Below, in pieces: positions 4,450 to 52,413 of a stretch of 64,000 bases of DNA. Under the pieces are notes generated by a model. It saw only the letters and a program-made list of their open reading frames with translations. It ran no database searches and was not told the DNA's origin. Within the stretch, counting starts at the first letter, position 1; every line of letters starts with the position of its first letter. Source of the DNA: Hydractinia symbiolongicarpus. Its lineage: Eukaryota; Cnidaria; Hydrozoa; Anthoathecata; Hydractiniidae. The stretch lies in the NCBI RefSeq assembly GCF_029227915.1, contig NC_079879.1, positions 3,908,001 through 3,972,000 on the forward strand, given 5' to 3'. The position numbers were made by a program, and so were the translations under genes.

Positions 4450-6700
4450 GAGTCTGACGAGTAGTTTTCAAATAGCAACACGTGGCATTTGGATTTAAAC
4501 ATAGAAAACGAGAATGCAGAAAATGCAGAAATGGATTCAGCAGAGCTGGGCTGAATCCATTTTCTGATGTTGGATCAACGAGAAACTCCCTTGGTAATAA
4601 TAAGCAGTTTTGAAATGGTATATTATGTCAAGGGTTATTTCTCATATGGAAATATTTGGACTCGTGTCGTAGTGACCCAGTGTGACCCCATGCTAACAAA
4701 AACTACAAGACAGATACAGCCAGCTTTTTGACAATTTTTAATTTGGTTTACAAAAAATGTAGGTAGCTCCGCCCTGGTTAGTTAAATAAAGTTTCTAGCA
4801 AACACAAAATAAGAAATTTTGGAATTGTTTTTTAATATTATAGCCAGTTAGGTATCTGTTTATTGAGCATGAAACTATTAGTTTAGAAAAAAAACCATTG
4901 TTTTCTTTACTTGTGTTTAATGAGCTACAGTATTTTGGCTGTACTAGTAGCTATATAAATCTTGAATGACATAACTAGCAATTCCTCTTTGATCAGCACT
5001 GTGATATTTTTAAGACAAAATTAAAACTTGTGATGTAACTAGCTACCAAAAATAAGGTTTCTTTCTCTTTTGACTGACAACTTTTAAAGATGAGTGTACC
5101 CCACAACTTGAAGCAATTAAATTAATGGCCAAGTTTAAGTCTTGAACTTTCATGATATACAATCTTATGTCAATACTGAGTATCCTTCCTTTAAATAATT
5201 GTAAAATCAATATATCGCACCAGTTTAAAAAGTGAAAATACAAAAGAAAAAGTGAATAATTCTCTGCGCGCTGCATGTTTTTCTTAGAAGGGGGATATAA
5301 AATTTGTCCCTAGTTCTTCGCTAGTGCCACACCTGCGCGGTATGCAACACCGTAATTAAAACATTTAGCACTTATGGTAGCCTAATATTCTGTGTTCTTT
5401 TTTTTATTTAGGTGTTTAAAGATGCAGTTGTTCATTTTCATCTGGTCTGCATAATAATTATACTCTGTCGAATATTTTGTACGCTTTAAGAGTGTTTGTC
5501 TAAGTTTTATAGTTACCAACTTGTAGTGTTTATACATTTTCTTTAATATAAAATATCGTTTCAGCTATTACGTTATTTTCTCTGCCTGGTCTGCAAATAT
5601 ATGTTCTTGTCCGAAATTTCGTACAATTCTATGAAGTCTCTCAATCTTAAGAAGATTTAAGTTAGAAGTTGCGCAACCCCCCGTTGAAACCGTATAGAAA
5701 TTTAGAAAACGTTGCATACGGCTGCTAGAAAGTCAAACGGGTATAGAAAAATTTCACCTGAACAACCTACTTATATTTTAATTCACGATCGCTTTCATCA
5801 GTACAGTGAGAATCGCTTTCCCGGATACTTAAAAAATACCCTGGGGACGAGGTTACGAAAATCTTACAATCATAAGAAAGTTTTCAGACCAGGCCGTCCA
5901 ACTGTATAAAGCCTAACAAGCCCTGGGGACGAGATTGACAACCATCGTTTCAGTTCGTCATTTAATTTCTTAGTTATATATTGCATCAAAAGAAATCTCG
6001 GAATGTTTGAAATAAAGAAAAAAGAAAAAAAAGAAAGCGTGCACCTCACAGGAGAACTAATTGTTGACTAAACTAACATCAAGAGAAATTTTTTCGCACA
6101 TAAATTTTAATTTTTGCGTAATTACCAACAAAGTGTACGCCAGAAAGACTTCCTAACATTTATCCTCTCTCGATGTGTTCCCAAGAGTTTATGTAAGGCG
6201 ACGCGACATAGAATAAGGACATAAAATAAAAATAAATTAAATTTCACAGATATGTTGTTATAAAGTGTTAAGAAGAATGAATGTCCGGCGCACATGTTCC
6301 TATTATGCCGAATTCTGGCCCAGACTCAAAAATTTGCCCTGCGTCCAGTTCCCGAGTAATACCCCACCCCCGAAGTCGTGGATCCCGGGTCCCATTTTTC
6401 CCGTATGTCGTGAACGTGCACATACGTTAGCGATCAGGTAAAGCGCTAGCGGCTTGACATCAGGTAACAAACCCTGGGTACAAGGATGAGGGTCAGGAAA
6501 CAGGCTCATGAGATTTATAGGCCCTTAGGTAGTAGTAACCACACCGTCGGTAAACAAAGGCCTCTTTAATTAGGCGGGCCGTGTGTCCGGTGTGTCCGTG
6601 AAAGGTTTTAAACTTCGAAAACCTATGTGCGTTTGACCACATACCACATTGTGCCAAACTGCACGAAAATGGAACGTCCTCGTTTTTCTGTGTGCAGAAA
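4450..6700. other. No recognisable gene; dispersed CCTGGGGACGAG motif
   Basis: AT-rich non-coding sequence. The motif CTGGGGACGAG occurs at about 5840 and about 5922, and again at about 22683. It looks like a dispersed repeat core. Short reading frames such as plus 5712-5909 show no domain. Minus 6570-6902 is mostly the complement of the stress-protein gene. Confidence 0.3.
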
Positions 6701-6703
6701 TCA

Positions 6704-6710
6704 TATAAAA
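6704..6710 (+). promoter_or_regulatory. TATA box of the universal stress protein gene
   Basis: TATAAAA lies 60 bases before the chosen start codon at 6770. This spacing fits a transcription start near 6735 and a short 5' leader of about 35 bases. It also argues against the upstream in-frame ATG at 6692, which would lie before the TATA box. Confidence 0.6.
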
Positions 6711-6769
6711 GCCAGCTTGCTCTTGTGTTATGTAGAATTTTGGTATTGGTTTTAGTTTGTGTAGAGAAA

Positions 6770-7297
6770 ATGTCAAAAGACCCAAGATTAATTTTGCTTC
6801 CAGTTGATGACTCGCCTCATAGCGAAAGAGCTTTTGATTGGTACCTTCAACATTTACATCGACAAGGTGATCAACTTGGTATTGTCCATTTTCATCAAGC
6901 ACCTCAACCGACAGCTGAAAAGTATGGTGTGTTAAGTGTTGGTTTGGTTGATGATTCAGATAAATTTAAGGAAGAAATGAAAGCAAGCTTGCAGAAATCA
7001 AAGAAATTGATTGAGAAATACGAGAAGAAGGCTAAAGATTCTGGGATAAAAAGCGAAACATTGCTTACGAGCAGTGTTCATGGCCCTGGAGCAGGAATAT
7101 GTGACCTTGCCGAAAAACGTAATGCTGCCGGAATTGTTATGGGATCTAGAGGTTTGAATTTGTTAAGAAGAACATTTTTGGGCAGTGTCAGTTCATATGT
7201 TATAAACCATGCGAACACTGCAGTCACAATCACACCGCCTGAAAAGAACCTATCAGTGTCATCAGGACATACGGACGAATCAGAAATTCTTACTTAG
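6770..7297 (+). CDS. Universal stress protein (UspA family), 175 aa
   Basis: Single-domain universal stress protein, the Rossmann-like alpha/beta fold that binds ATP in the UspA/MJ0577 type. Residues 7-13 (LILLPVD) form the first beta strand ending in the conserved Asp13, followed by SPHSERAFDW. A lysine-rich helix covers about 65-90. The nucleotide-binding signature G125-S-R-G128-x9-G138-S139 is complete, so ATP binding is predicted. The length is normal for the family. The frame is open from 6692, but the ATG at 6770 starts at the family's usual N-terminus and lies after a TATA box. The gene is intronless. Such genes are kept in cnidarians and plants but lost in most other animals; the role is probably cytosolic stress response. 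A decayed second copy lies at 18424-18775. Confidence 0.93.
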   Translation: MSKDPRLILLPVDDSPHSERAFDWYLQHLHRQGDQLGIVHFHQAPQPTAEKYGVLSVGLVDDSDKFKEEMKASLQKSKKLIEKYEKKAKDSGIKSETLLTSSVHGPGAGICDLAEKRNAAGIVMGSRGLNLLRRTFLGSVSSYVINHANTAVTITPPEKNLSVSSGHTDESEILT

Positions 7298-22217: not shown

Positions 22218-24120
22218 TTTATAGAGAACAATGGAATGTCAAAATCTTCAAAAGTGATCAAAAATTGAATGGTTTACTCAACAACTTGTTCAGCACTACA
22301 ACAAAAGTTTTAACATCATTAATAACCTCAGATGCACTTTAGGCGTAGAATGTTCGACAGGCAACATATCATAAGTAGCACTTCAAAAAAGGTTGAAGCA
22401 ATGGCTAAGGAACAGACTGAATAGGTACAGAGAAACTTTGGGGCAAAACAGGAACTATTTTAAAACAGAAATAGTTTCCCAGGCACGTTTTGTTATAACA
22501 AACAAGTTTGACTTTGATTGACACTCTTAGCCGTAACTGGGCAAGCAAACATGTGGATTTAATCTTTATAAGTAAAATGTAAACAAGTAACGACTTAGTA
22601 ACAGTTGAGCCTCGTGACGTATGTATTATTGTCTTTAAGATATGAGAGAAAGACGGCGACATATCAAAAAGGCAAAAAATTCTGGGGACGAGGGTGGATT
22701 ATCGTTTTCTTCCAGGATACTTCAAATTCACCCTAAACAAAAGGGCTTCTTCTGTTATGCTGAAAATTATTTTGTTTATAGTTTTTCAATTTGGAACTTA
22801 CAATCTTACTTAAACCCCTCAATTTTGACGATTATTATTATTATTATAAAGAAGAAGTCTTTGCAGAGAATGTTGGCATGCTTTTGAAGCAAAATTTGTA
22901 TTAGATAGAATTTGTTTAAAAACATATCTACTTTTCTTTCATACACTGCTACATAAATTATGCAAACATTGCTTGGTGCAGCAGCAGCGTTACAAAATTG
23001 ACGAATTTGAAAAATAAACAAAAACATGCAATCAGACTTATTTTAAACTCACTCAAAGTTATGTGATCAAAACGAATAATTTTTTTTCTATCATATTTAT
23101 GTTTTTTATTCAAATGGATAACGTGTTTAGGTATGGCCTAAGGGATTTATTAGTCAGGCATTAAATTTGTTCGATATTCAGTTGTTTGTACTGGAGGCTA
23201 CCCTTTAATTGTTAACCTGTCATATGTTAAAAACAACGTTTTAGTCCACGGCATGTTACTGCAAAAAATAACGACCAGAGAGAAACCGAGAATGACTTCT
23301 TGTATTCAGCGTCGGGTAAACACACACAGCATCAACCTTTTTTATTCAATGTTGTGTTTATGTAAAATGCATGTCACACGATAGCCCTAACGAGAACTGT
23401 CAAAATAAAGTCGAAAACTATCAAAATAAAAACGAGAACTATTAAAATAGAAACGAGAACTGTTAAAATAATGACGAGAAGTGTCTAATTAAAAACAAGA
23501 ATTGTTAAAGTAAAAACGAGAATTGTAACACCTCAGGGCGAAGTAATGTCGCTTGATGTTACGTAGCAAATACAGCATACGACAAAGAAGCTAGGAGCAG
23601 AATGCTCTAAAATAAATAGGATTTGTAACTAAGAAGAATGTTACGTTTCAATGGCGACACTTTGTAAACAATGAAGACCACTGTTAAAATAAAAGCATTA
23701 ATAATCATCTGTTTGTTATATGATGATGTCGTGCTCATAAATATTGTGCGTTGATGTTACATGAAAAGAAAACATCACTCACACTACTCTCCATTTTCAA
23801 ATGTGACATTTTCCATTAGTTTACATTGAATAATGGAAATGGCTTCTTATATGATTTTTACTTTAATCAAACAACTGAATTTTATATTTTATCGACTTTA
23901 ATTAAAGGATTAATAGTAATAATAATAATAGCGCAGCGGGCAAGTATATATTCTTTACAACACAACAAATAAAAAAAATCATTAGGATCCTTAAGTGTCA
24001 AATAATGGCGATGGTTGCGAAGAAGTGTTCTTAGCTGAGGTAGTAATGTTTTGTTGTTTAACTAGATAAAAATAAATGAATCGTCATTATTAAGAATCAG
24101 GAGAAAAGTTTGGTAGAAGT
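22218..24120. other. No gene; upstream region of the DUF885 gene
   Basis: AT-rich. It holds the 21-base tandem array at 23391-23527, an ATT-rich tract at about 22830-22850 and an AAT tract at about 23910-23932. No TATA box at a convincing distance from 24121 and no coding exon upstream were seen. Confidence 0.35.
23391..23527 (+). repeat. 21-bp tandem repeat, about 6.5 copies
   Basis: Units of the form CGAGAACTGTTAAAATAAAAA repeat every 21 bases with a few substitutions per copy. It lies 0.6 kb upstream of the DUF885 gene. No coding is evident. Confidence 0.85.
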
Positions 24121-25869
24121 ATGGAAAAGTTTGAAGGCTTATTACAAGTTCAACAAATATGTGAGAAATTTTGGTCATGGAGAATGGCAAACTTTCCAGA
24201 GTTTGCCACTTTAGCCGGTGAGCATAAATTTGACCATATGCTACATGATTTCAGCTTGGACGCGTTTCAAAAACGAACGCAAGACGCCACATCATTTCTT
24301 GCTGAAGTCAACGATTTATTGAAATCATTGGAAGAGTCTGGAATTCAGGCGGCCTGCTATGATGACTTAGATATGCTTTCGTCTCATTTAAAAACATTTG
24401 TTGACGGAATGAAACATAGAGCTTACTTATGTCCAGTAAACAGATTAGAAGGCCCACAATGCAATTTCTTTCGATTGCTGCAACACATGAAAACAGACAC
24501 ACCTGATGACTTTGAGAAAATTTTATGCCGACTGTCTTTATTGCCAAAACAGATTGACCAGATGATTGAACTGATGAAGGAAGGCATTCGAACAAAAACA
24601 ACATTACACGAATGTTCCATTTTACCAGTTCCAACTCACCTTAGAAACATAGCAAATGAAAATTTTTGGAAATCTCCAATCTCAAATTTTTTTAAATACA
24701 AGCCGGTGTTAGTTAACGACTCAGAATGGAAAGTCATAGCAAAAAAAGCCGAGCAAATTACAAACGATCAGATTAATTCTGCTTTTATCAAATTGGCAGA
24801 CTTTATAAACGACAATTATTTAAAACACACACGTAACCACATTGGCTTGGACTGTCTTTTTAGAGGGAAGGAAATGTATAAATCTTGCTTGCAATACCAT
24901 ACATCAACAACGATGAGTGCACGTGAAATTCATACCGTAGGATTGAAAGAAGTAAAGCGTATTTGTCAGCGGATAAATGAAGTAATGCAGAAAATGAATT
25001 TTGGTGGAAGTTACAATGACTTCTGCATTTGCATGGACAGAGAATCACCATACTTTAGTGCTCACGAGATTTTAAAAGATTACTCTTTAATATACCAAAA
25101 AATTGTGAAGGAATTACCAAAGATTTTTGCTGTTTTACCAAAAGAAGATTGCCTTATCAAGCCGGTACCAAAGGAAGAAGAAGCAACAGCAATCACCGCC
25201 TTTTACAAAGATGGTAACGAGAACAGAGCAGGTGTTTTTTACATCAACACTCATAAGCCGAGAAATCGTGGTAGGTACAAAACAACAGCGTTAGTTTTAC
25301 ACGAGGCCATCCCTGGACACCATTTGCAAAGCGATGTGTTTCTGCGAAAAAAAGATACTCCCAAATTTCGACGATTTCTGGAGGGAGGCAATTATCAAAT
25401 GATACCAGGTAGATTTCCGTTGTATACTGCCTTCATGGAAGGGTGGGGGCTATATTCAGAATTTTTAGGCGAAGAGTTACATTTATATGACAGTTTGTCA
25501 GATTTATATGGCAGGTTGAAGAGCGAAATGTTAAGAGCGTGTCGATTGGTTGTTGATACCGGTATACACACTTTTGGTTGGTCGAGAAACCAAGCCATCG
25601 AATATTTAATGTGTAATGTAGGATTGTCTCAGGAGAGTGCTTCGGGAGAGGTAGATCGATACATTACGTGGCCTGGGCAAGCATGCGCTTATAAAATTGG
25701 AGAGCTGAAGTTTTTACAATTGAGGCAGCAGGCACACGATTTATTGGGAGAAAGGTTCGATGTTAAAGAGTTTCATGGAGTTTTATTGAATAATGGTGCA
25801 GTTTCCATGGACTTTCTTCAGAAACAAGTTAAAAGCTATATTTTTACAAAAATGTCTTTACATTGTTAA
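24121..25869 (+). CDS. DUF885-family protein (putative zinc metallopeptidase), 582 aa, intronless
   Basis: A full-length DUF885 protein. Family hallmarks are the HExxPGHH motif HEAIPGHH at residues 394-401 and the downstream EGWGLYSE at 440-447. By analogy with HExxH enzymes, His394, Glu395 and a following His/Glu could bind zinc, so a peptidase or hydrolase is predicted; a substrate cannot be read from sequence. There is no obvious signal peptide, so it is probably cytosolic. The length of 582 residues is normal for the family. The start is the first in-frame ATG and begins a typical helical N-terminal region. The whole gene is one exon amid intron-bearing surroundings. DUF885 is mostly bacterial, so bacterial origin or retroposition is possible, but several marine invertebrates carry it. 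Base use is AT-rich like the neighbourhood. Confidence 0.92.
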   Translation: MEKFEGLLQVQQICEKFWSWRMANFPEFATLAGEHKFDHMLHDFSLDAFQKRTQDATSFLAEVNDLLKSLEESGIQAACYDDLDMLSSHLKTFVDGMKHRAYLCPVNRLEGPQCNFFRLLQHMKTDTPDDFEKILCRLSLLPKQIDQMIELMKEGIRTKTTLHECSILPVPTHLRNIANENFWKSPISNFFKYKPVLVNDSEWKVIAKKAEQITNDQINSAFIKLADFINDNYLKHTRNHIGLDCLFRGKEMYKSCLQYHTSTTMSAREIHTVGLKEVKRICQRINEVMQKMNFGGSYNDFCICMDRESPYFSAHEILKDYSLIYQKIVKELPKIFAVLPKEDCLIKPVPKEEEATAITAFYKDGNENRAGVFYINTHKPRNRGRYKTTALVLHEAIPGHHLQSDVFLRKKDTPKFRRFLEGGNYQMIPGRFPLYTAFMEGWGLYSEFLGEELHLYDSLSDLYGRLKSEMLRACRLVVDTGIHTFGWSRNQAIEYLMCNVGLSQESASGEVDRYITWPGQACAYKIGELKFLQLRQQAHDLLGERFDVKEFHGVLLNNGAVSMDFLQKQVKSYIFTKMSLHC

Positions 25870-33362: not shown

Positions 33363-33860
33363 CCCAGTGGGCACTTCAACGTTGAATCAACGTTGAAAAG
33401 ACGTTGCTTGCGACGTTGAAAAGACGTTGATTTTACGTTGCAAATGAAAGTTTTTTTGACGTCTTTTTCCGACGTCTATTCAACGTCGGACATCGACGTC
33501 TTTTCAACGTTGAAACAACGTCTCGCAACGTCTTTTCAACGTTGAAACAACGTCTCGCAACGTCTTTTCAACGTTGAAACAACGTTGCAGGACGTTGTTT
33601 CAACGTTGAAAAGACGTTGATGTCCGACGTTGAATAGACGTCGGAAAAAGACGTCAAAAAAACTTTCATTTGCAACGTAAAATCAACGTCTTTTCAACGT
33701 CGCAAGCTACGTTGAAACAACGTCCTGCAACGTCTCTTCAACGTTGAAACAACGTCTCGCTACGTCTTTTAAACATTGAAATAACTTCTCGCAACGTCTT
33801 TTCAACGTTGAAAAAACGTCTAACAACGTCTAATCAACGTCGTTTGGAAATGCTCTCGCA
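33363..33860. repeat. Left subterminal AACGTTG repeats with large internal hairpin
   Basis: Dense AACGTTGAAA-CAACGTC and GACGTTG words. The segment about 33404-33530 is inverted at about 33590-33714 (both contain ATTTGCAACGTAAAATCAAC or its complement), giving a hairpin with arms of more than 100 bases. Confidence 0.85.
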
Positions 33861-39017: not shown

Positions 39018-39850
39018 CTAATTAACATCATGATGTAGTGGAAATAATGCTAAACCTTTCTCCGTTACAATATTTACCACTTTCCTTTTCAGCTCTGTCA
39101 TTGGTATTTCCATCCGTCTCAACAATCGCATTTTGTTTTGTGGAATAAGGCAAATATCTAATTTCATTGAGTCACAAGGTGAATGAAATAAGCTTTCAGT
39201 GATCTCGTTAGCTGCTACATCACATATTACACTTTCATTCATAATTTCCTTTATAAATATGTAACTACCATTTTTCAATAAAAAACAATTATCTCTATTT
39301 CGACTTGACATCACTGTTTTTAGCACTTTTTTTGAATATTTTGTTCCACAATTTTCAAGCTCAGTAATACGTTTGACTACTTGTACTGTAGGATTTTGTG
39401 AATTACGAACAAATTTTTTTAGAATTTGCAAGTAATTTTCAAATGGAAAGCACGACATGGCATCTAAGGGCAAGTTGAATTTCTCGACGTCAGATGATAG
39501 ATGAATTAAATTATGCACGTTGTATGAGCAGAAATAATTTCCATAAAATTCTTGTGAATTTGTCACAAAATATTCCAGAAGTTGATGAGCATAATTCAAG
39601 TAAGCAGACCTGATACCACCATTAGATTCCAACATGATTTTGATAGCAATTGATAATGATAGGAAATGATGAAGTAAGACCACCTCAGCCTGGGCATTAT
39701 ATCCATTAAATATTTTTTGAGAAATCTAGCTAGCATTGTTTTTTTAGAGATAAGTCTCTGGAAATAAATTTTTCTTACATTCTGAAGAATCCCCATCTCT
39801 CTTGTACTGAAATGTCGACTTGTTGACATGCAGACAAATAACATCACTTC
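39018..39850 (-). pseudogene. EnSpm/CACTA-type transposase, C-terminal part only
   Basis: The minus frame ending at 39018 is open for about 221 codons up to 39683 and readable to about 39720. It contains the signature block YNVHNLIHLSSDVEKFNLPL, then FPFENYLQILKKFVRNSQ and VVKRITELE, which matches the DUF4218-like C-terminal region of EnSpm transposases. Further upstream (to 39850) the sequence is in other frames with no clear match, and the catalytic region is absent down to the right subterminal repeats. There is no ATG at its 5' end, so it is a truncated relic or a last exon that lost its partners. Confidence 0.75.
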
Positions 39851-40824: not shown

Positions 40825-41299
40825 GTGCAACGTTGAATAAACGTCGATAAGACGTCGGTTGAATCAACGTTGCAGTGCAACGTTGAATAAACGTCGATAA
40901 GACGTCGGTTGAATCAACGTTGCGGGTGCGACGTTGAATAGACGTCGGTTGAATCAACGTTGCGGGAGTGACGTTGAATAAACGTCGATAAGACGTCGGT
41001 TGAATCAACGTTGCAGTACGACGTTGAATAAACGTCGGTTTTACGATCGTTGAAACAACGTCTTTTTTCGACGTTGTATCAACGTTGATATCACGTCGGT
41101 TGAAACAACGTTGTGGAAACGACGTTGAAAAGACGTCGATGATGCGACGTTGTATTCATGTCGGAGGGCAACGTTGAAAAGACGTTGAATTTACGTCGGT
41201 TGCATCGACGTTGCAGACCCAACGTTGATTAGACGTTGAATGTTGGTTGCGACGTCGCGACCAGAATTCAACGTCTAATCAACGTTGAAAAGACGTCGT
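40825..41299. repeat. Right subterminal AACGTTG/GACGTCGG repeats
   Basis: Units such as AACGTTGAATAAACGTCGAT followed by AAGACGTCGGTTGAATC recur about every 50-60 bases from 40828 to 41040, then diverge towards the right terminal repeat. This is the counterpart of the left subterminal array at 33363-33860. Confidence 0.9.
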
Positions 41300-50500: not shown

Positions 50501-51054
50501 AGCTATCGTCTGTACATTACTGTTATAATACTTTCCAAATGTATTTATGTGGCTATGTACATTTATTTTCAATATTTTCAACTATTTCCTTGCCTTCACT
50601 TTTTCTAACATTTAAAAATGTCTTTATCGTTTGTTTGCTTTGCTCCGCTGTTTTTAATTTTTAGTTTGTATCCTCAACGTATAACTCGAGGGGAATGTTA
50701 CGAATATTAATACCCAATTAGATTACGACAATAATCAGTCGGTGCCATGGCTAATTCTTTCCGTCGTCCAAGAATTCAGAAAAGAGAAAAAGGCCTGGTG
50801 GATGACGCTGGTGGTAACCGGCTATTAATTTCTAAAACAATTTTGTCTTTAAACAGGTCGTATTAAGTATTATCCATATAATTACGCCTTATTTCTACAT
50901 TACTAATACATTTTGCATGATAACTATGCCGAGCGGTTAATTATTTAATTAAACTGTTCAAGCGTAAACTATCTGCTCAACTGAATTGTTAGCTACTTGC
51001 ACACTAAATAAATATCCCTCAGTTGGAAGGGTAATTTCCAGAAAGAAAGTCAAA

Positions 51055-52413
51055 ATGAAATTTTTCAAAATAATACCTATTGTATTTCTGCTTGCGTGTG
51101 AGCATACATCAACTGGTAATGATGTTGATGAAGATGAATATGAACATGATGAATATGCCGTTAGCAGATATGACGTCGGTGACGACAAAATGATGGACCG
51201 ACAGAATGTGTTTAGCCGATCTTCCCCTTGGCCTATTGGAGACGCCAAACAGATGGAACGACAGAATGTGTTTAGCCGATCTTCCCCTTGGCCTATTGGA
51301 GACGCCAAACAGATGGAACGACAGAATGTGTTTAGCCGATCTTCCCCTTGGCCTATTGGTGACGCCAAACAGATGGAACGACAGAATGTGTTTAGCCGAT
51401 CTTCCCCTTGGCCTATTGGAGACGCCAAACAGATGGAACGACAGAATGTGTTTAGCCGATCTTCCCCTTGGCCTATTGGAGACGCCAAACAGATGGAACG
51501 ACAGAATGTGTTTAGCCGATCTTCCCCTTGGCCTATTGGAGACGCCAAACAGATGGAACGACAGAATGTGTTTAGCCGATCTTCCCCTTGGCCTATTGGT
51601 GACGCCAAACAGATGGAACGACAGAATGTGTTTAGCCGATCTTCCCCTTGGCCTATTGGAGACGCCAAACAGATGGAACGACAGAATGTGTTTAGCCGAT
51701 CTTCCCCTTGGCCTATTGGAGACGCCAAACAGATGGAACGACAGAATGTGTTTAGCCGATCTTCCCCTTGGCCTATTGGAGACGCCAAACTGATGGAACG
51801 ACAGAATGTGTTTAGCCGATCTTCCCCTTGGCCTATTGGAGACGCCAAACAGATGGAACGACAGAATGTGTTTAGTCGATCTTCCCCTTGGCCTATTGGA
51901 GACGCCAAACAGATGGAACGACAGAATGTGTTTAGCCGATCTTCCCCTTGGCCTATTGGAGATGCCAAACAGAAGGAACGACAGAATGTGTTTAGCCGGT
52001 CTTCCCCTTGGCCTATTGGAGACGCCAAACAGATGAAACGACAGAATGTATTTAGCCGATCTTCCCCTTGGCCTATTGGTGACGCCAAACAGATGGAACG
52101 ACAGAATGTGTTTAGCCGATCTTCCCCTTGGCCTATTGGAGACGCCAAACAGAAGGAACGACAGAATGTGTTTAGCCGATCTTCCCCTTGGCCTATTGGA
52201 GACGCCAAACAGAAGGAACGACAGAATGTGTTTAGCCGGTCTTCCCCTTGGCCTATTGGAGACGCCAAACAGATGGAACGACAGAATGTGTTTAGCCGAT
52301 CTTCCCCTTGGCCTATTGGAGACGCCAAACAGATGAAACGACAGAATATGTTTAGCCAATTTCCCCTTAGGCCTCTTGGAGACGACAAAATGATGAAGAA
52401 ACAATACGCATAG
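51055..52413 (+). CDS. Secreted precursor with twenty 20-aa tandem repeats, 452 aa
   Basis: Starts at the ATG in AAAATGAAA. Residues 1 to about 22 are a signal peptide (hydrophobic IIPIVFLLAC core). Then comes an acidic leader (DVDEDEYEHDEY), and from about residue 43 nineteen nearly identical units QNVFSRSSPWPIGDAKQMER plus one diverged unit (QFPLRPLG). The array is bracketed by DDKMMDR before and DDKMMKK after. The only cysteine lies in the signal peptide region. Single Arg residues (FSR, MER), a Gln that could become pyroglutamate and a Gly in PWPIG suggest a multi-copy peptide precursor. However, Gly is followed by Asp, not by the usual basic pair. Alternatives are a structural, mucus or venom-gland-type repeat protein. 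Units are nearly identical in DNA (mostly GGA/GGT changes), so copies are young or homogenised. No family is recognised. Confidence 0.85.
   Translation: MKFFKIIPIVFLLACEHTSTGNDVDEDEYEHDEYAVSRYDVGDDKMMDRQNVFSRSSPWPIGDAKQMERQNVFSRSSPWPIGDAKQMERQNVFSRSSPWPIGDAKQMERQNVFSRSSPWPIGDAKQMERQNVFSRSSPWPIGDAKQMERQNVFSRSSPWPIGDAKQMERQNVFSRSSPWPIGDAKQMERQNVFSRSSPWPIGDAKQMERQNVFSRSSPWPIGDAKQMERQNVFSRSSPWPIGDAKLMERQNVFSRSSPWPIGDAKQMERQNVFSRSSPWPIGDAKQMERQNVFSRSSPWPIGDAKQKERQNVFSRSSPWPIGDAKQMKRQNVFSRSSPWPIGDAKQMERQNVFSRSSPWPIGDAKQKERQNVFSRSSPWPIGDAKQKERQNVFSRSSPWPIGDAKQMERQNVFSRSSPWPIGDAKQMKRQNMFSQFPLRPLGDDKMMKKQYA
51181..52380 (+). repeat. Exact-period 60-bp coding tandem array, 20 units
   Basis: Sixty-base units begin at 51181 and every 60 bases to 52321. 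Variation is minor: GGA or GGT at the end of the Gly codon, CAG to CTG at 51791 (Q to L), ATG to AAG in the units starting 51961, 52141 and 52201 (M to K), GAA to AAA at two units near the 3' end (52021 and 52321), and a diverged last unit. No length change occurs in any unit, so the reading frame is preserved throughout. Confidence 0.97.

Follow-up and report, generated by a model that had tools for sequence, protein, structure and literature searches.

A gene of the hydrozoan Hydractinia symbiolongicarpus appears, at about even confidence, to encode a secreted, multi-copy, non-amidated hydroid peptide precursor. It lies in a 64,000-nucleotide stretch of contig NC_079879.1 (positions 3,908,001 to 3,972,000), hereafter the window; the contig is called C5 in the coordinates below. 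The gene has an intact open reading frame (ORF) of 452 aa on the forward strand (window 51055-52413), from an ATG at 51055 to a TAG at 52411-52413, which reads in order as a predicted signal peptide, an acidic leader, 19 units of 20 residues that are near-identical, a diverged twentieth and QYA-stop. The features of the locus, in window coordinates except for the paralog, are as follows.

50529..51054, + strand: 5' flank, promoter/5' UTR region, partly common with the broken paralog (blastn)
51055..51117, + strand: predicted signal peptide, residues 1-21, MKFFKIIPIVFLLACEHTSTG (hydropathy and von Heijne matrix)
51118..51201, + strand: acidic leader, residues 22-49, net charge -9 (translation; 94% DNA identity to paralog copy B)
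51157-51201, + strand: degenerate half-unit AVSRYDVGDDKMMDR closing the leader (translation)
51202..52341, + strand: units 1-19, QNVFSRSSPWPIGDA-K-QMER, with residues 1-15/16 as the proposed peptide core and 17-20 as the spacer
52342..52401, + strand: unit 20, diverged, QNMFSQFPLRPLGDDKMMKK, with a dibasic KK end (76% mean DNA identity to units 1-19)
52402..52413, + strand: C-terminal QYA and stop
C5:3902284 (window-side copy) and C5:34568455 onward (second copy), same strand as the gene: start of the paralog leader

TRF reports one array at 51181-52389, with a period of 60, 20.1 copies, 96% matches and 0% indels. The first-pass annotation holds in its description of 20 repeats with an exact 60-bp period behind a predicted signal peptide and an acidic leader. 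Its count of nineteen near-identical units and one diverged unit also holds: 13 of units 1-19 are exactly QNVFSRSSPWPIGDAKQMER, six (units 10, 13, 14, 16, 17 and 19) depart from it by a single residue, always inside QMER, and unit 20 differs from the others in several core residues. At the DNA level, units 1-19 are on average 97.7% identical in pairwise comparison. Worn copies flank the array on both sides, namely the half-unit in the leader and unit 20. The half-unit, like the second assembled copy and the broken paralog described below, goes beyond what the first-pass annotation noted. The best signal-peptide cleavage site falls between STG and ND, after residue 21 (score 5.36, from a von Heijne matrix with zero counts handled ad hoc). 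The repeats contain no cysteine, as first observed, the sole Cys of the protein being residue 15, within the predicted signal peptide; the 452 aa further include 22 Gly and 4 Tyr. The net charge is -9 for the acidic pro-region, +28 for the repeat domain and +1 for a single core. A TATA-like TAAATA at 51005, in the 5' flank, is not conserved in the alignment with the paralog.

No stretch of the protein passes the Pfam threshold alone (0 stretches). Matches to DUF2102 and DUF6475 were set aside, since the whole-protein cutoff was exceeded only over the repeats and no single stretch passed. A PDB sequence search with the protein gave 0 matches up to E 1, and Rfam at gathering thresholds and ARAGORN gave nothing on the 64-kb window. 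An open-access full-text search for PWPIG, SSPWPI, QNVFSR, RSSPWP and WPIGDA returned no related paper, as judged by title and start of abstract. The gene may well sit in public annotation as an uncharacterized protein.

As 60 is a multiple of 3, a unit frame free of stops remains open across the whole array. Other frames over the array are indeed open (492 and 452 aa in antisense, 195 aa in a second forward frame) and the published H. symbiolongicarpus assembly is rich in tandem arrays (PMC11067881; this and the other articles given by PMC number are cited from partial text), so the length of the frame is no evidence for a gene. That evidence is provided by the leader, the terminal unit and a paralog.

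The paralog, which is diverged, lies upstream on the same strand in both assembled copies of the locus, ~57 kb away here and 43 kb away in the second copy. Stops in its leader, unit 1 and last unit are common to both copies, making it a pseudogene in each; copy A has one extra stop, at codon 2, and relative to the gene the alignment shows one base deleted where unit 1 begins. It consists of about six diverged 60-bp units, reading QNAFSRFSSPSIEDARMKER and similar, and ends near KKQY or MKQY; a pattern built on these units has 4 matches genome-wide, all within its two copies. Of the 5 in-phase units of copy A, 4 have K/R at position 16, and the spacers are MDER, INKR, MKER, MSEL and IRKK. The 147-bp leader of the gene is 89.1% identical to copy A and 91.2% to copy B with no indel, whereas the 5' flank is 49-78% identical to copy B per 60-bp bin, with many gaps, and the units share about 70% DNA identity with those of the paralog. 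By blastn, 50529-51549 matches copy B at 70.8%, and the match to copy A begins only at 50935. On these identities the leader is steadier than either the flank or the units, and the units appear to have turned over. The dN/dS of the leader against the broken paralog is >1 on few sites, and we therefore claim no protein-level constraint. Conservation of the leader between the gene and the pseudogene is nevertheless stronger evidence than the open frame.

A pattern for the PWPIGDA core has 38 matches genome-wide, half of them (19) at the window locus and the other 19 close to the opposite end of the contig, at C5:34.61 Mb. The second array copy differs from that of the window by one silent base in the ORF, and the protein is identical. 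The 31.7-kb piece bearing the gene matches at 99.8% between the two assembled copies and belongs to a co-linear block of ~146 kb (C5:3.87-4.02 Mb versus 34.52-34.67 Mb), a size measured within the stretches compared. Pieces of the block match at 92-99.97% and are separated by long unaligned stretches; they are listed only if >1500 bp, or >700 bp and >92%, and one piece off the diagonal (85.8%) was set aside along with repeat-register matches within the array. The published heterozygosity of H. symbiolongicarpus is 1.33% (PMC11067881), and duplicated BUSCOs amount to 6.5% in the published assembly (PMC10411563). We read the second copy as a probable haplotype left unpurged in the assembly, a genuine recent segmental duplication being less likely. 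The second array was also considered as an independent paralogous gene, and this was rejected because a haplotype was judged likelier given the extent and identity of the co-linear block.

Units 1-19 carry eight distinct changes, five synonymous and three nonsynonymous. The silent ones fall in codons 3, 5, 6, 13 and 14, all within codons 1-16, and those that replace a residue fall in codons 17, 18 and 19. With an expected silent fraction of 0.23-0.27, five silent changes out of five in codons 1-16 give P values of 0.0006-0.0015, and the split of silent and replacing changes between codons 1-16 and 17-19 gives 0.018 by Fisher's test, all of these being post hoc values on n=8 distinct changes, with the 16/17 codon boundary picked after the changes had been viewed. 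Antisense frame 1 yields the same silent count, 5/8, and the silent-change test alone thus cannot choose the strand. The core/spacer pattern of variation is supporting evidence, not proof.

Position 1 is Gln, the residue directly before it is Arg and residue 16 is Lys, each in 20/20 units, so that Lys16 and the Arg before Gln bound a core of 15-16 residues and a QMER-type spacer. Dibasic ends occur in only 3 of the 20 units, as KR in units 14 and 19 and as KK in unit 20; most units finish with a single Arg preceded by Glu (ER), with neither Lys nor Arg at P4, P6 or P8. Cleavage at a single Arg follows a rule of Lys/Arg at P4, P6 or P8, and cleavage at most unit ends is therefore uncertain. The single-Arg GR sites in the RFamide precursor of the same genome lessen this weakness without abolishing it. 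The dipeptides GR and GK each occur 0 times in the 452-aa protein and Gly always precedes Asp in units 1-19; the amidated PWPI end once proposed to arise from PWPIG is rejected on this ground. Processing at acidic residues before the N-terminus, also proposed, finds no counterpart here either, since Arg, never Glu/Asp, precedes the Gln of each unit, unlike in the RFamide precursor. The idea of a multi-copy peptide prohormone is thus supported in part, by the N-terminal Gln, the Arg before it and the confinement of replacements to codons 17-19 in units 1-19, and loses its amidated end.

The RFamide precursor of the same genome offers a direct comparison, being likewise built of many tandem copies with an N-terminal Gln. 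The genome contains a single cluster that matches a QWLKGRFG pattern 18 times, and 20 pQWLKGRFamide copies have been published for the species (PMC8638164). The precursor (~L035:1320-2530) has 36-bp units with a variable acidic spacer, and its array is interrupted at ~L035:2040-2300, possibly by an intron. Among 15 contiguous units (of the 18 pattern matches), residues 1-10 are invariant despite much silent variation, and the amino acids vary only at spacer positions 11-12. The RFamide array and the repeat gene (units 1-19) are thus alike in that the core is invariant and amino-acid changes stay within the spacer. They differ at the junctions: RFamide copies end in GR (amide) with an acidic residue before them, whereas the repeat gene has no G-R/K and has Arg before Gln. 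They differ also in DNA likeness among units, 77% for RFamide and 98% for the repeat gene, which makes the latter array young or homogenised.

The published description of amidated preprohormones (PMC8638164) asks for a signal sequence, at least three GR/GKR/GKK sites, similarity among copies and N-terminal protection (pGlu, XP or XPP). In the repeat precursor a signal sequence is predicted, with its best site after residue 21, and there are 0 GR/GKR/GKK sites; the copies are similar (13/19 identical, 6 with one change, unit 20 diverged), and Gln stands at position 1 in 20/20 units, its conversion to pGlu being predicted only. According to the same excerpts, the usual cnidarian layout has basic sites only at the C-termini and acidic or non-basic residues before the N-terminal Q, a place held by Arg in 20/20 units here. 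Judging from the translated sequence, the repeat gene does not belong to the cnidarian class of amidated neuropeptides, though it may work like one. The excerpted text of Koch et al. lists no such gene for H. symbiolongicarpus; their hydrozoan neuropeptide screen required a C-terminal GR/GKR/GKK in its script (PMC8638164). Earlier screens are likewise described as guided for the most part by cleavage sites already known, by amidation residues and by N-terminal motifs (PMC12440616), and a multi-copy precursor without the amidation Gly is easily missed by screens based on GR/GKR/GKK or on motifs.

The nearest working precedent is the LW-peptide precursor A of Hydra, which is multi-copy without an amidation Gly, as is the repeat gene, and is neuronally expressed, one of its peptides causing contraction; in the partial text its authors report no homologues in other organisms (PMC12440616). 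The LW motif is absent from the repeat-gene translation, and expression in neurons and activity are demonstrated for the Hydra precursor, whereas both are hypothetical for the repeat gene. In Hydractinia, a 'putative neuropeptide' gene, HyS0049.55, marks Neuron type B (PMC12464821) and may or may not be the repeat gene.

If the gene does encode such a precursor, the signal peptide would be removed after residue 21, as predicted, and the acidic pro-region would accompany the net-basic repeat domain through secretion. A convertase would cut after R20 of each unit (KR/KK in three units) and also after K16, the QMER-type spacers being discarded. By analogy with known cnidarian processing, a carboxypeptidase would then trim the basic residue and glutaminyl cyclase would close the N-terminal Gln. 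The product would be ~19 copies of pGlu-NVFSRSSPWPIGDA(K), i.e. about pQNVFSRSSPWPIGDA(K), which may serve as an extracellular signal. The computed monoisotopic masses are 1642.774 for pQNVFSRSSPWPIGDA, 1770.869 for pQNVFSRSSPWPIGDAK, 2159.011 for pQNVFSRSSPWPIGDAKQME and 1056.524 for SSPWPIGDAK. The sperm-activating peptide precursors of echinoderms and Hydra thypedin likewise hold numerous peptides of nearly the same sequence, part of them set free by cleavage at single basic residues; these precursors have other sequences, occur in other animals and serve as an analogy only. Unequal exchange may keep the array near-identical, in which case a new unit type could replace an old one with the leader unchanged. 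We give a slim chance to the fuller proposal of a lineage-restricted, non-amidated hydrozoan hormone, with basic residues flanking each copy, in which homogenisation replaces the peptide sequence and the leader stays near constant. Such a hormone, if real, could act in fast-evolving gamete, colony or species recognition. If the gene is expressed and its product cleaved, a tractable model for which CRISPR and single-cell atlases exist would gain a non-amidated peptide, and the gene and its broken paralog would document a repeat peptide changing its sequence with the leader kept.

Three other explanations were weighed against a peptide precursor. A secreted structural or gland repeat protein that stays whole (in mucus, periderm, adhesive or capsule matrix), with repeats serving bulk assembly, had been put forward as an equal alternative; giving it equal weight was fair, but we now lean towards the peptide precursor and consider a structural protein less likely, though the main rival. 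Homogenised, near-perfect repeats and mostly single-Arg junctions would suit a protein that stays whole, and secreted Shematrin/Prisilkin-like repeat proteins occur in stolon-enriched cells of H. symbiolongicarpus (PMC11876637), sharing with the repeat gene repeats, relatives nearby in the genome and a signal peptide, which in the repeat gene is predicted. Those proteins are, however, built on XGnX glycine repeats (X being I, L, V or Y; PMC11876637), whereas the repeat gene has one Gly per 20-residue unit and no XGnX repeats, its Gly residues (22 in 452 aa) lying within I-G-D in units 1-19. The paucity of Cys (1) and Tyr (4), Lys16 and the Arg before Gln in every unit, and the restriction of replacements to codons 17-19 in units 1-19 also argue against a structural role. 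AlphaFold2 yields a model with one strand per repeat (best mean pLDDT 67.2, pTM 0.64), but three of its five models reach only 46-50 pLDDT and the antisense-frame control gives a similar model (65.5 / 0.61); across five models each, the mean pLDDT spans 46.1 to 67.2 in sense and 43.7 to 65.5 in the antisense control. AF2 is reported to give such models for perfect repeats (PMC11795689). Given the similar control and this published artefact, the beta-stack was rejected as evidence of a structural role; the model cannot decide the question and weighs nothing.

That the locus holds no functional gene, only a tandem array open by chance behind a decaying leader like that of its broken neighbour, is improbable in our view. 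A 60-bp array gives open frames for free, several other frames are open here, the sister paralog is broken in both assembled copies, and the abundance of tandem arrays in the published assembly (PMC11067881) points the same way. Against this, the ORF is intact and its protein identical in 2/2 assembled copies, though these are hardly independent, the leader is kept without indels where the flanks are not, and the sense frame shows an excess of silent changes, though one antisense frame shows an equal one. Least probable of all the readings is a multi-copy precursor of defensive or gamete-acting peptides (antimicrobial, egg- or sperm-acting) rather than neural ones. In its favour are the quicker turnover of the units (DNA identity to the paralog about 70%, against 89-91% for the leader), a tempo expected of recognition or defence peptides that evolve fast, and the acidic pro-region (-9) ahead of a net-basic repeat domain (+28), but a single core at +1 is low for a membrane-active peptide, and a slow leader with fast units can also come from array homogenisation alone.

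Elsewhere in the window, a single long ORF of 591 aa at 24094-25866 (+) has a full-length DUF885 match (PF05960, E 5e-127), a family called bacterial by Pfam. An ORF at 6602-7294 (+) carries a domain of the universal stress protein family (PF00582, E 1.6e-24), and another at 39021-39725 (-) has a borderline match to DUF4218 (PF13960), scoring 27.4 bits where the cutoff is 27. The window has 119 stop-to-stop frames of at least 75 aa, and the Pfam search behind these matches covered 10 of them. Arrays with the palindromic motif CAACGTTG occupy 33496-33841 and 40825-41152, with TRF periods of 11 to 100 bp, and are probably a local satellite.
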